A stretch of DNA of 64,000 nucleotides. Origin: Saksenaea vasiformis B4078. Its lineage: Eukaryota; Mucoromycota; Mucoromycetes; Mucorales; Saksenaeaceae. The stretch covers positions 44,024 to 108,023 of the forward strand of contig JNDT01002369.1 in NCBI GenBank assembly GCA_000697055.1, given 5' to 3'. The notes below the pieces were generated by a model that was not told the DNA's origin, made no database searches, and saw only the letters and a program-made list of their open reading frames with translations. Numbering within the stretch: the stretch's first letter is position 1; each line of letters begins with the position of its first letter. A program made the position numbers and the translations under genes. Shown here piece after piece: positions 59,243 through 64,000 of the stretch.

Positions 59243-60521
59243 TTAGACAACAGCGTGCATGGGATCAAACAGGATGGATAAGGATTCGCCAAAGTGAATT
59301 CGTCTGATCGACTCTGAAAATATCGGCGTGACATCAAACATCTTGATCTTTGGGCTTGTAATATGCTGATGCTGAGGTACGGAATTGCTAACTACCATCT
59401 CATCAATGGCGCTTCTTTCGATGTTTTCGACAGCGTTCGCAGAAAGAATAGCGTGACTGACCAAGGCTGTGATCTTGAGAGCACCCTTCTTGCGAAGTAA
59501 TTTGGCGGCTTGCGTAATGGTGTAAGAGGTATCTGTAATGTCATCGAGAATGAGACAGTTCTTTCCCTCCACGTCGCCTACAAGAATAAATTCTTGTTTT
59601 TGCGAGGTGATTTGTCGTCGTTCCTTATGGATCAGTGCAAAATCCATGTACAGCTTCTCGGCAATGGAGGTGGCCCTAGTTGTTGTGTTAACTATACTGC
59701 TTCTTCTGTCAATCTATATATTCACCTTTTTGCGCCACCAGCATCTGGTGAGACAATGACCCAGTCTTGATAATTGGGTATCTCCGATCGGATATACTTG
59801 ATCATCAAAGGCATGCTTTGAAGGTTATCGACAGGGCAATCAAAGAATCCTTGGAACTAATGCACATATTATCTTTAGGTACAACTTGCTACCGGTATGA
59901 TTCATCTACCTGAGCATCGTGCAAGTCCATCGTAATGATATGGTCAGCACCTAGTCATCGTTTCATCTTAGACAACAAAAAATCGCATCTTATCTTGCCT
60001 GCACATGTAAGGAGATCTGCCACCAGCTGACCAGAACGTGCTACCCACTCACGGTAGGGTGTCTTCTCGTCGTCCCCCTGAATCTGAGTGGACAAACGGT
60101 TCAGTAATTGCGAGGACAAATCGTCGACGTTGGGCGTATTTGGTGTATAGAGAGGTGTAGCTGCCGCGGACGGTGTCGCAGGGGGTAATTGAGCCAGGGG
60201 TGCACCTGACGACTTGAAAGGTACATCGGCTTGACGCGAATACGGGAAATATGGGATAACAGCGGTGATGCGCTTAGCTGACGCGATCTTGCACGCACTA
60301 ATCATGATGAGCAATTCGATCAAATTGTCGTTGACATGTCCACATCCAGATTGGACGATATAAACGTCGCGTTCTCTGACTGACTCGTTGATCTGCACAC
60401 TGGTTTCGTTGTTACTGAATTTCGTCAATTTTGTCTTCCCTGGAGATACACCAAGTCGGCGACATATCCTTTCAGTTAATTCTGGGTGGGAAGAACCACC
60501 AAACACTACGAGATTGCGCAT
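59243..60521 (-). CDS. PRS1: Ribose-phosphate pyrophosphokinase (PRPP synthetase), fungal Prs1-like
   Basis: It makes PRPP from ribose 5-phosphate and ATP for nucleotide, His and Trp synthesis. The start [20 protein letters not shown] is the typical Prs1 opening; the in-frame ATG 26 codons upstream is less likely. Motifs in order: [30 protein letters not shown], then a Pro/Ala/Thr-rich insertion of about 40 residues, [53 protein letters not shown], and the PRPP-binding region [13 protein letters not shown], which deviates from the common DDxxDTCGT form as in the non-canonical fungal Prs subunits. Such subunits work in hetero-oligomers. Intron 59951-59998 begins with GC rather than GT. The first exon ends at 59999. 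Confidence 0.93.
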
Positions 60522-60691
60522 GACAAGGAAGCATGCAAAAGTTTTCTGTCCACACAGTTTGTGACCGGCTCGTGCAACGTTACGGGGCTCCGTGACCATG
60601 TCTGTAGCCCTGAAATCCCCGATTGTTAGATCCTTTACGGAAATCAGACCCAGTCCTTACCTGTCATACAAAGTGACGAGTGAGCAGTTCC
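60522..60691 (-). other. Short spacer between Fanzor stop and PRS1 start; candidate omega-RNA region
   Basis: 170 bases downstream of the Fanzor stop codon. In studied Fanzor loci the guide (omega) RNA derives from the gene's 3' end and flank, so this is where one would look. No structure was folded here and no repeat was identified; PRS1 promoter elements must share the same space. Confidence 0.3.
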
Positions 60692-63600
60692 TTACTGCCT
60701 AACTGTCCTGGACAGTGCTGCCGGGCGAGATGCTAATTGGCATCCTGATTCGATGTAGCGAACTAGTATATCACGAATATTTCGGCCGGCATTAACATCC
60801 CTATTCCAAAACTAATCAAATAGTTAAGTATCAACGTGTCAAGCCAAGCAGTACGGCTTACTAGAGATGTTCTGATTCCTCGTCTATCATATGCGCACTG
60901 AGGGCACAGTCGGATAGGATGGACGATATTTCTATAATTGTTGCGAGCTATTCCTGTGTTAAAGAAATATTTATAACAGCCTGACTAACTCATACCGGGT
61001 CGGCGTCTATTGGGGCATTCACTGCTTAGATGCAGAATCTGCTCGTCGTCACTTAAGCAGTATTGACGTTTGTGCTTGTGATGCCGGCGTCTGATATACT
61101 TCTTACTAGAGATCAATTCATATGAGTCAGGTTTCCACTGTGTCCATTTGTTTCCCAAACATACCGATGATTACACAGTTGCATGTTATAGTCACGGAAA
61201 TCGACTGTATCGTGATGACATATGCTGCATACTTTGCTGGTTTTGTACTCGTCTACGCATATGACTGGACATCGCTATGCTAGCACCTTGCGAAAGGTCT
61301 ACACATGGATAGTAAATATTAATAGGATTCTCACTACCAAGAGAACTTCAACACTCTCACCTTCACCGGTAACGGTGCATATGTCTTATAGCCTCCACTA
61401 TGCAGGTCGGCATCTCCGTATGCCACAAATGCCCGCCGCTGGTCACGTCTACTGTTTTGTGCCTCACGATGCTGACGACGTTGGCGATACCGCGCTTTTT
61501 TGTTCTGTTTTTGCACATTTGCAACTGGAGGCTGACCCAGTGAAATAATTAATGAACGAAGAATAAGCAGGCAAATGCTCACCAGGGTTGAATTGGGATA
61601 AAATCCCCCGACTTGATCCGCGATAACGTCCATGGTCATACTTCTGGAAGAGCCCTGCAAGGCACGCCTTTCCCTGTGTCTGTAATGACGGTTGAACTCA
61701 TCCATTCTGGAAAAGTCCGTTCAATATGACCACATATTGACAAGAACATTCTGTTGCTACCTCTGTTTTTCGCTAAATTGCGCCATAAGAAAGTGCTGGG
61801 ATTCCGGAACAGATGAGGCCGTCTTAGGATGTTCCGAAAGACAATCGTAGATTTCCTGCATGTTGGCACTTTCACGATTTTTCCTTTCTATCTGAAGACT
61901 CCAGTTAAATTTGGAGCTGGCACTAAAAAAGCATGCAGTTATTGCACTGACTACATACAGGATCTTGTTCTTACTAATAATAACCGTTCGTGACAGAAAA
62001 TGTATGGCTATTTCTTGCCTCTTCATCATGAAGATCCTCCGCTGTGTCTACGGCGGTCACAAGGGAACGAATACCTACGAAATACGTATATAGCCTTTGT
62101 TAGATTCTTTGTAACAAGGAGCATACCAGGATCGATTCCCACAATGCGAGTTCTTTCAGGGTCTAAATGGCGTGCGACCGTTAAGCCCGTGGGCTCCTTC
62201 TTCAAATGATAGATGCCACAATGCAAATCAGAGAAATCCCTGTTACGAAGAAGGAACTGAAAGTCTCTTTGGGAGGACGGATAAGATGCTGAAATGCAAC
62301 CTTTCTGTTAGCGTGCTCCACGATATAACAAAACTGGACTGACCTTGGTTTGGTTTGCGAGATTTAAATCTGACTGCCACCATAACACCATCCGTTTCAA
62401 AGCCATAATCAGACTCTACTTCTGGTAGCTCATCGTTGTTTATCCCTTATATGACAAGTGTAAGGACATTACTTCCATGCAGTTGAATATGACCAAACCT
62501 TGTGCCCGGCGGCGGCGAGGCATGACTCTATCAAGACAAAAAATTGCTTCCCAAAGTTGTTCGCTGTATATCATGTCCTTGAGCGCATTATTGAAGGTAT
62601 GAAAGCCTTGCAAAGGACCCTAACGTAAGAGAGTCAATTTTTCTTCCGTCAATTTATGCTTTTTTTACGAGACACCTACTGCTAGATTTTCCGGGAGGTT
62701 GGTGGTAATGTCTTTAAGCGCCCAGTAAAGTATTTTACCGGTTACGGGGAAGTAGCCTAGCGTAGTATTATTGCTTAGCCCATACTATGGTTCAAAGAAG
62801 GTCACCGGGTTCCAGCTTACCTATCTGGTTTTTAGCCATTGGAACGAGAGCCCAGCCTTTTCCATTGAGTTCATTTGTTTGCTTAAGCATCAATGCTGAG
62901 AGACGAAGCATACACGGAAGCAACCGCTGGCTTTCATCGTCACTGAGGTCTGCGGTTATATCTACATTACCAAGGTTTTCCTGGTAAACATTCTGAAACT
63001 CTCTAGCAAGCACCCAACGGTACGTAATCGTGAGAAAGAAAATAACTTCGTATCTTGTCTTATCATACCCATAAAAACTTCAAGTTCGGTGATTGAATCA
63101 TCATCTAAAGTTGCCCATGCACTACGGTCAAAAAGTTCTTGTGTTGTTATTCCCTGGACACATCTGGATGCTACAAATTGGAAGCAAGGCGATATACCTA
63201 CCAAGAGAACTTCAACACTCTCACCTTCACCGGTAACGGTGCATATGTCTTATAGCCTCCACTATGCAGGTCGGCATCTCCGTATGCCACAAATGCCCGC
63301 CGCTGGTCACGTCTACTGTTTTGTGCCTCACGATGCTGACGACGTTGGCGATACCGCGCTTTTTTGTTCTGTTTTTGCACATTTGCAACTGGAGGCTGAC
63401 GCAGAGAGATAATTAATGAACGAAGAATAAGCAGGCAAATGCTCACCAGGATTGAATTGGGATAAAATCCCCCGACTTGATCCGCGATAACGTCCATGGT
63501 CATACTTCTGGAAGAGCCCTGCAAGGCACGCCTTTCCCTGTGTCTGTAATGACGGTTGAACTCATCCATTCTGGAAAAGTCCATTCAATATGACCACATA

Positions 63601-64000
63601 TTGGCAAGAACGTTCTGTAGCTACCTCTGTTTTTCGCTAAATTGTGTCATGAGAAAGCGCTGGAATTCCGGAACAGATAAGGCCGTCTTGGCATGTTCCG
63701 AAAGACGATCGTAGACTTCCTGCATGTTGGCAATTTCACGATTTTTCCTTTCTATCTGAAGACTACAGTTAAATTTGGAGCTGGCTCTAAAAAAGCATGC
63801 AGTTATTGCACTGACTACATACAGGATCTTGTTCTTACTGATAATAACCGTTCGTGACAGAAAATGTATGGCTATTTCTTGCCTCTTCATCATGAAGATC
63901 CTCCGCTGTGTCTACGGCGGTCACAAGGGAACGAATACCTACGAAATACGTATATAGCCTTTGTTAGATTCTTTGTAGCAAGGAGCATACCAGGATCGAT
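60692..64000 (-). CDS. Fanzor, eukaryotic TnpB-like RNA-guided endonuclease (5' end outside window, internal duplication)
   Basis: C-terminal exons 61361 upward, 61165-61274, 60996-61105, 60862-60953 and 60692-60811 join in phase. RuvC-I is RIVGIDPG (exon low end 62127) continuing as IRSLVTAVDTAEDL; the segment before it, YGFETDGVMVAVRFKSRK, is the usual pre-RuvC strand. RuvC-II is VICVDEYKTSKVCSICHHDT, also giving the first CxxC; the second CxxC is LCPQCAYDRRG, and RuvC-III is FWNRDVNAGRNIRDI. All three acidic residues are therefore present. Upstream exons (62790-63190) give FQFVASRCVQGI and WVLAREFQNVYQENL, then LPCMLRLSALMLKQTN and WALVPMAKNQIGKLEPG, matching the Fanzor N-terminal lobe. 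A tandem copy of the central part begins at 63198 and runs off the window. The true first exon is not visible. The family cuts DNA guided by an omega RNA. Confidence 0.88.
61334..62136. repeat. Direct repeat copy A inside the Fanzor gene
   Basis: Matches 63198-64000 base for base with offset 1864 and no indel; about 23 substitutions over 803 bases were counted by eye, most of them between 61535 and 61880. It covers the intron before the RuvC-II exon and the exons up to and including RuvC-I. Confidence 0.95.
63198..64000. repeat. Direct repeat copy B inside the Fanzor gene (continues past the window)
   Basis: Second copy of 61334-62136. It begins at CTACCAAGAG and ends at the window edge inside the codons for the RuvC-I IDPG motif. 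Coding frames remain open in both copies. If the duplication is complete the unit would extend to about 65061. Confidence 0.95.

Follow-up and report, generated by a model that had tools for sequence, protein, structure and literature searches.

A probable damaged copy of a multi-copy, Fanzor1-carrying DNA transposon beside PRS1 in Saksenaea vasiformis

Fanzors are eukaryotic RNA-guided nucleases. The Fanzor-like region described here lies at the end of a 64,000-nucleotide stretch of the genome of Saksenaea vasiformis B4078 (contig JNDT01002369.1, positions 44,024 to 108,023; hereafter the window), the last position of which, 64000, is also the contig end. With a probability of roughly 0.87, the region represents one damaged member of a multi-copy DNA transposon family in which a 19-exon Fanzor1 nuclease is the only gene detected. 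Comparisons with described elements follow PMC10432273, PMC3627910 and PMC10711439. Fanzor1 families in Rhizopus, Phycomyces and Mucor were reported by Bao and Jurka in 2013 (PMC3627910), so the kind is already known in such fungi. The Mucorales elements ROr-4, PBl-3, MCi-4 and MCi-2/MCi-5 resemble the present family in carrying Fanzor1 within DNA transposons, and MuDr-like Mucorales elements likewise have no transposase of their own (PMC3627910). Their target-site duplications are described as 9 bp (MuDr-like), 11-12 bp or putatively 6 bp long (PMC3627910), whereas the family here, in a comparison made by description, has 8 bp and a one-sided motif. The likeness to Spu-1, which carries SpuFz1 (PDB 8gkh), extends to a repeat family with inverted repeats, some intact copies and no transposase found (PMC10432273, PMC3627910), and to a conserved stretch between the stop codon and the right end (PMC10432273); the two proteins also align at RuvC-I (IDPG here, IDPN there) and over DEYKTS..C..C. 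In contrast, Spu-1 has one open reading frame (ORF) against 19 exons here, 633 amino acids against 781, 2.1 kb against about 5 kb and a TA instead of an 8-bp duplication, and its insertion-site motif touches the left end instead of lying about 17 bp off it. At 8 bp, the duplication of the present family departs from the 9 bp characteristic of MuDr. An 8-bp target-site duplication is a hallmark of the hAT superfamily, but no transposase was detected in the element (ORFs of three copies, three 5' pieces scanned with Pfam). The kind of element is thus known, and the family was not matched to any described one.

On the minus strand of the window, the motifs IDPG (62136-62127, completed across an intron), VDEYK (61256-61242), CSIC, CPQC and NRDVNA (60805-60788) lie in separate open frames. 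The initial annotation had joined minus-strand exons with consistent phases into an intact catalytic gene with a complete RuvC triad. The joining is confirmed, as exons 6-19 form a single frame under the family exon map, with GT...AG at 13 of 13 junctions; since that map derives from codon periodicity across 22 copies, the arrangement of the motifs is not due to chance. The triad stands only in so far as all three catalytic codons are present, and the intact gene is rejected. An in-frame TAG in exon 16 lies between RuvC-I and RuvC-II, and the VDEYK open frame of the ORF list starts directly after it. Exon 6 is short by 1 base, which is present in 21 of 21 other aligned copies, and exons 1-5 are absent from the window. 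The sequence from 63198 to the contig end, tried as the 5' part of the gene, was rejected because it is a repeat of 61334-62136 at 97% identity, running from the end of exon 11 to exon 15 of another copy. The junction sequence at 63197/63198 occurs once in the genome, and other copies run on upstream of window position 63198 with a common sequence that is missing from the window. In exons 7-19 the window copy has private changes at 7 first, 4 second and 2 third codon positions, without the third-position excess seen in diverged copies such as L028, L032 and L034. The window copy is an ordinary damaged copy, and its protein is non-functional.

A genome search with 60690-64000 found at least 39 other matching places at 74-99% identity, many of them partial; this is a lower bound, 40 of 66 candidates having been scored, and it rejects a retained single-copy gene. 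Copies are up to 95-97% identical over a 2.5-kb query. All of this shared sequence stops sharply on the right at window position 60586, and what lies beyond is unrelated from match to match. Three full copies span roughly 5 kb, from a left end GGCTCGCCTGCGGTGTCTGT to a right end that reads, in reverse complement, GGCTCCGTGACCATGTCTGT or a close variant, and the terminal inverted repeats of the family are imperfect. The ends were studied with 29 left flanks (L043-L072 minus L071, a chance match), no two of which are alike at 35 or more of 60 bases, and with 25 right flanks in the duplication test and 23 in the analysis of composition, some right ends having missed the end pattern. Of the 29 x 25 left/right flank pairs, 12 match exactly over 8 bp at their ends, with a slip of up to one base allowed, compared with a mean of 0.055 and a maximum of 2 in 200 shuffles. 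Six of these pairs lie within one contig and six across contigs; among the latter, the right flank of the window copy, CCGTAACG, pairs with a left end on contig C460 (L055), and the left end of C458 pairs with the right end of C573, though C458 has its own right end. Judged by eye, the duplication is shared in 7 of 10 left/right pairs on one contig, and a matching duplication of L032 is visible outside the 12 counted. The pairing of flanks between C458 and C573 and between C632 and C460 means that single contigs join parts of different insertions, either through chimeric assembly or through recombination at these repeats, and the left part of the window copy may have arisen in this way.

With its inverted repeats and 8-bp duplications, the family resembles a Fanzor1 transposon more than an IS607-type Fanzor2. 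No transposase was recognised among the ORFs of the three copies, and the three 5' pieces gave no Pfam match above cut-off; nor was a serine recombinase found among these ORFs or pieces, in a search of the 5' part that was not exhaustive. The 5' 1.5 kb shows at most weak local periodicity, around 211-330, with poor alignment beyond about 900 nt. A segment of about 390 bp, lying some 0.9-1.3 kb in from the left end, is present in copies A (C665) and B (C626) and missing in copy C (C633); in copy A this segment is flanked by inverted repeats of about 50 bp, and it is probably a small insertion inside the element. For the elements at L050/L073 (C383) and L051 (C396), likeness to the family is confined to the initial 119-123 bp of the left end, and their interior differs. 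In the one on C383, one ORF without a Pfam match and no convincing right end were found.

The gene model was built from the 22 of 30 loci, the window included, that reach both ends of a 2.6-kb query. Variation among these copies has a strong three-base periodicity that begins about 600 nt into the alignment reference, extends nearly to the right end and changes frame where short gaps occur. The best spliced path comprises 19 exons encoding 781 amino acids (copy L012, the reference). Under this single exon map, 8 of the 21 other copies have neither stop nor frameshift: L012, L014, L015 and L017 are uninterrupted with every GT-AG, and L011, L018, L032 and L034 are uninterrupted but deviate at one or two splice sites. 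Among seven uninterrupted copies of equal length, the ratio of nonsynonymous to synonymous divergence (dN/dS) lies between 0.12 and 0.27 for 20 of 21 pairs; for the youngest pair it is 0.94. The three catalytic residues are all kept in 21 of the 22 copies. The spliced gene is under purifying selection over the whole protein. L034 (C431) is a diverged copy, with a dS of 0.82-0.93 to the others and two splice-site deviations, and that it still reads through points to long-term selection on the protein.

By its motifs and its best match among PDB sequences, the family protein is assigned to Fanzor1. RuvC-I carries DPG in 22 of 22 copies, the RuvC-III Asp (NRDVNA, exon 19) is present in 21 of 22, and the RuvC-II Glu is shifted to six residues before the first CxxC (VDE-YKTSKV-CSIC; E649, C656). 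The signatures stated for Fanzors are DPG and a Glu six residues before the zinc finger (PMC10711439), and the family protein has both. It departs in ribbon and spacing from the published pattern DPG-x(120-160)-E-x6-CxxC-x(12-18)-CxxC-x(4-8)-D (PMC10711439), as 199 residues separate DPG from E, the second pair is C-x-H after x14, and 70 residues lead to the RuvC-III D. Since that pattern was built to find TnpBs sharing the RuvC features of Fanzors, the mismatch is treated as a Fanzor1 elaboration and not as grounds for exclusion. The two CxxC pairs noted earlier, CSIC and CPQC, can both be read, but the conserved second metal pair is another one: it is C-x-H (CNH) that stays invariant in five homologues, and CPQC keeps just its first Cys in all of them.

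Homologues of the spliced protein number six at E <= 0.001, comprising four named fungal proteins at 27-29% identity and two weaker, unnamed ones; a further search with the alignment found nothing more. The named proteins (P0001-P0004), from Rhizopus microsporus (two), Lichtheimia ornata and Cunninghamella echinulata and labelled 'hypothetical' or 'uncharacterized protein', are homologous over most of residues 200-780 and have most active-site positions in common with the family protein. Unlike it, P0003 has NPG at RuvC-I, P0001 has RGIN at RuvC-III, and P0002 lacks the second Cys of the first CxxC. A profile of the spliced protein and these four relatives matches 2 PDB sequences at E <= 10, and the better of them is the S. 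punctatus Fanzor1 (8gkh; E 0.0026), aligned mainly over RuvC-I. DPG, the shifted Glu, RDVNA and this match point to Fanzor1, and in this respect the Fanzor gene of the initial annotation is borne out. Elsewhere in the genome, with 150 of 388 candidates scored, there are at least 137 matches to PF07282; the window contig has none of them, and by eye none overlaps the listed family copies. The genome is Fanzor-rich, with further families, a second of them at L003.

Around the stop codon the element is least variable, and the block there is a candidate omega-RNA scaffold, placed where Fanzor guide RNAs lie. The Spu-1 omega RNA lies between the stop codon and the right end, and that of GtFz1 overlaps the last 17 codons (PMC10432273). 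In 25 copies, the third positions of the last 13 codons hold 3 minor letters, compared with 100 over the 26 codons that open exon 19; the same test is less favourable with 22 copies, where p is 0.049. The least variable 75-nt block of the alignment (position 601 on) straddles the stop codon, and in the first 31 nt after the stop 25 of 31 sites are invariant, compared with 303 of 664 intron sites (p 1e-4). The window copy keeps the whole low-variability block and the right end.

The most interesting by-product of the family analysis is a one-sided insertion motif. In the 29 left flanks, the strongest positions spell TTnAAnC[TC]C[CA]GC at -28 to -17, about 17 bp before the left inverted repeat, together with a C at -8, which is the first base of the duplication. 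Information content reaches 1.40 bits at -20 and 1.07 at -8; in 1000 shuffled sets the maximum has a mean of 0.30 and a highest value of 0.76. In leave-one-out scans over 98 positions and both strands, the best match falls at the exact place in 16 of 29 flanks and within 3 bp in 25 (missing L043, L050, L056 and L069), which means that insertion is oriented and occurs at a nearly fixed distance from the motif. By eye, L050 has ACTCCG at the usual distance, though the scan placed its best match elsewhere. The right flank has C at +1 with 1.30 bits, the next position holding 0.43 (23 copies, no shuffle control). Searched as a common genome motif, the strict form TTNAANCTCCGC, a narrower pattern than the motif, is not over-represented: it has 56 exact genome matches, and its reversed control has 51. 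No report of it was met in the titles and abstract openings of the papers listed in open-licence literature on Fanzor, Mucoromycota Fanzor and target sites, which covers few subscription papers.

An ordinary target-adjacent motif (TAM) at the start of the guide was rejected on geometry, 9 bp lying between the motif G and the duplication. Given its distance from the predicted start of the guide, the motif is probably recognised by a transposase and is less likely to be a TAM of the usual geometry. A very unlikely alternative is that the motif is the Fanzor's own TAM-like C[CA]G recognition and that the element integrates into a staggered cut made by the Fanzor; if true, an RNA-guided nuclease would choose the insertion point of a eukaryotic transposon. 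The duplicated 8 bp occupy 10 to 17 bp downstream of the motif G. Reported cuts are after bases 17-18 on one strand and 9-14 on the other for MmeFz2 and after 16-17 and 20-21 for SpuFz1, and the TAM of NlovFz2 is CCG (PMC10432273). Against this alternative, such an integration would need a guide that begins away from the motif. Right-flank guides compared with the insertion sites of other copies gave no match beyond chance (longest words 8 bases, shuffles 6-10), and 6 of the 7 shared 8-base words are target-site duplications, so that insertion guided by the flanks of other copies has no support in this comparison.

A number of observations weigh against the interpretation of the region as a damaged copy of a Fanzor1 transposon or against parts of it. 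The acceptor boundary of intron 5 is uncertain. L014 (C363), otherwise uninterrupted, has His at the RuvC-III Asp and is possibly, by its sequence, a readable but catalytically dead copy; one catalytic Asp is also missing in 2 of the 4 named homologues. The second stretch of the SpuFz1 match, DEYKTS..C..C, is insignificant by itself, a PDB search with the single protein gave no match, NCBIfam TnpB scores are insignificant for the RuvC-II piece, and the AlphaFold model of homologue P0002 is too poor for use (mean predicted local distance difference test score, pLDDT, 32). The Pfam profile PF07282 (Cas12f1-like TNB) scores 25.3 bits with the spliced protein, under the gathering score of 26.3. 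As to the candidate omega RNA, in a comparison with L034, the most diverged copy, 9.5% of 75-nt windows reach the conservation of the stop-codon block; the 3' region has weak folding z-scores, and Rfam gives no match. By eye, a shared duplication is lacking in 3 of the 10 left/right pairs on one contig. Both lesions of the window copy, the stop and the missing base, are called from the assembled sequence.

This last point bears on the possibility that the locus is really a full-length, uninterrupted copy and that the junction, the missing base and the stop are errors of assembly or sequencing. The assembly does join different insertions at repeats, as in C458/C573 and in the left end of the window copy found on C460, and the junction is unique; however, this would account only for the missing 5' half, the stop and the missing base lying inside continuous sequence, and indels or stops occur also in 13 of the 21 other copies, so that errors of this sort are considered an unlikely explanation. 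Still less probable is a protein that has kept the Fanzor fold and now serves as a DNA-binding or regulatory factor instead of a nuclease. The long stretch between the zinc ribbon and RuvC-III and the two named homologues without one catalytic Asp would agree with such a role, but the three catalytic residues kept in 21 of 22 family copies and the purifying selection on the whole protein speak against it. Hardly any weight is left for the original proposal of a Fanzor gene that is intact and either retained or recently active next to PRS1. The three RuvC motifs, the ribbon and the 13 of 13 GT-AG junctions are as that proposal has them, and the Fanzor does adjoin PRS1, with 64 bp between the right end of the element and the likely PRS1 ATG. 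The frame is nevertheless broken by the exon 16 stop and the exon 6 frameshift and lacks exons 1-5, and the sequence is a repeat copy with a target-site duplication, one transposon insertion among at least 39 other places and not a retained single gene; its place beside PRS1 is therefore no hint of retention. Recent activity fits the family, given copies up to 95-97% identical, uninterrupted frames and target-site duplications, and does not fit the window copy. The features of the damaged transposon copy are given in Table 1. The neighbouring PRS1 is closest to that of Apophysomyces sp. BC1034, with 88% identity over 75% of the query.

Table 1. Features at the end of the window, in window positions
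Feature	Position	Strand	Evidence
3' part (about 2.6 kb of roughly 5 kb) of probable Fanzor1-carrying DNA transposon	60586..63197	-	Sharp right end at 60586; genome matches; 3' end shared by copies whose flanks are unrelated; complete copies showing both ends
Piece of a different family copy, from the last bases of exon 11 to exon 15	63198..64000	-	97% repeat; junction unique; contig end
Exon 6, frameshifted (1 base short)	63069..63143	-	Alignment with 21 other copies
Exon 7	62821..63002	-	Family exon map
Exon 8	62680..62756	-	Family exon map
Exon 9	62499..62619	-	Family exon map
Exon 10	62344..62445	-	Family exon map
Exon 11, ending in RuvC-I (IDPG)	62127..62288	-	Family exon map, homologue alignment
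Exon 12	61975..62074	-	Family exon map
Exon 13	61761..61916	-	Family exon map
Exon 14	61583..61706	-	Family exon map
Exon 15	61361..61531	-	Family exon map
Exon 16: in-frame stop (61277-61275), then RuvC-II VDEYK and CxxC...CNH ribbon	61165..61298	-	Exon map; Pfam PF07282, 22.8 bits, below the 26.3 cut-off
Exon 17, part of the stretch of about 70 residues between ribbon and RuvC-III	60996..61105	-	Exon map, homologue alignment
Exon 18 (CPQC; first Cys conserved in homologues)	60862..60947	-	Exon map, homologue alignment
Exon 19: RuvC-III NRDVNA, C terminus, stop codon	60692..60811	-	Family exon map
Least variable 75 nt of the element, across the stop codon; candidate omega-RNA scaffold core	60656..60730	-	32 minor letters against a median of 128; last 13 codons almost invariant at their third positions
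Post-stop region to right end GGTCACGGAGCC; rest of candidate omega-RNA scaffold	60586..60691	-	Copy alignment
8-bp target-site duplication CCGTAACG	60578..60585	-	Partner, with one base slip, beside left end on contig C460 (L055)
Host PRS1 (ribose-phosphate pyrophosphokinase), likely ATG 60521-60519	59243..60521	-	Pfam matches; homology to Apophysomyces sp. BC1034

By analogy with characterised Fanzors, the protein made by intact copies would bind an omega RNA that is transcribed at the right end of the element and has flanking host DNA as its guide, and the protein-RNA complex would cut the empty site and so favour copying of the element back. The element itself would be moved by a transposase, presumably supplied in trans because none was detected within it. 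The window copy cannot make the full protein. As its right end is complete, it could still supply omega RNA to the protein of other copies, and the guide would then be the sequence upstream of PRS1.

The genome of S. vasiformis is a natural test set, holding uninterrupted copies, broken copies with complete right ends, at least 137 other TNB matches and a motif at a nearly fixed distance from the insertion. This motif makes a link between the target choice of a transposon and the recognition of DNA by its Fanzor testable.

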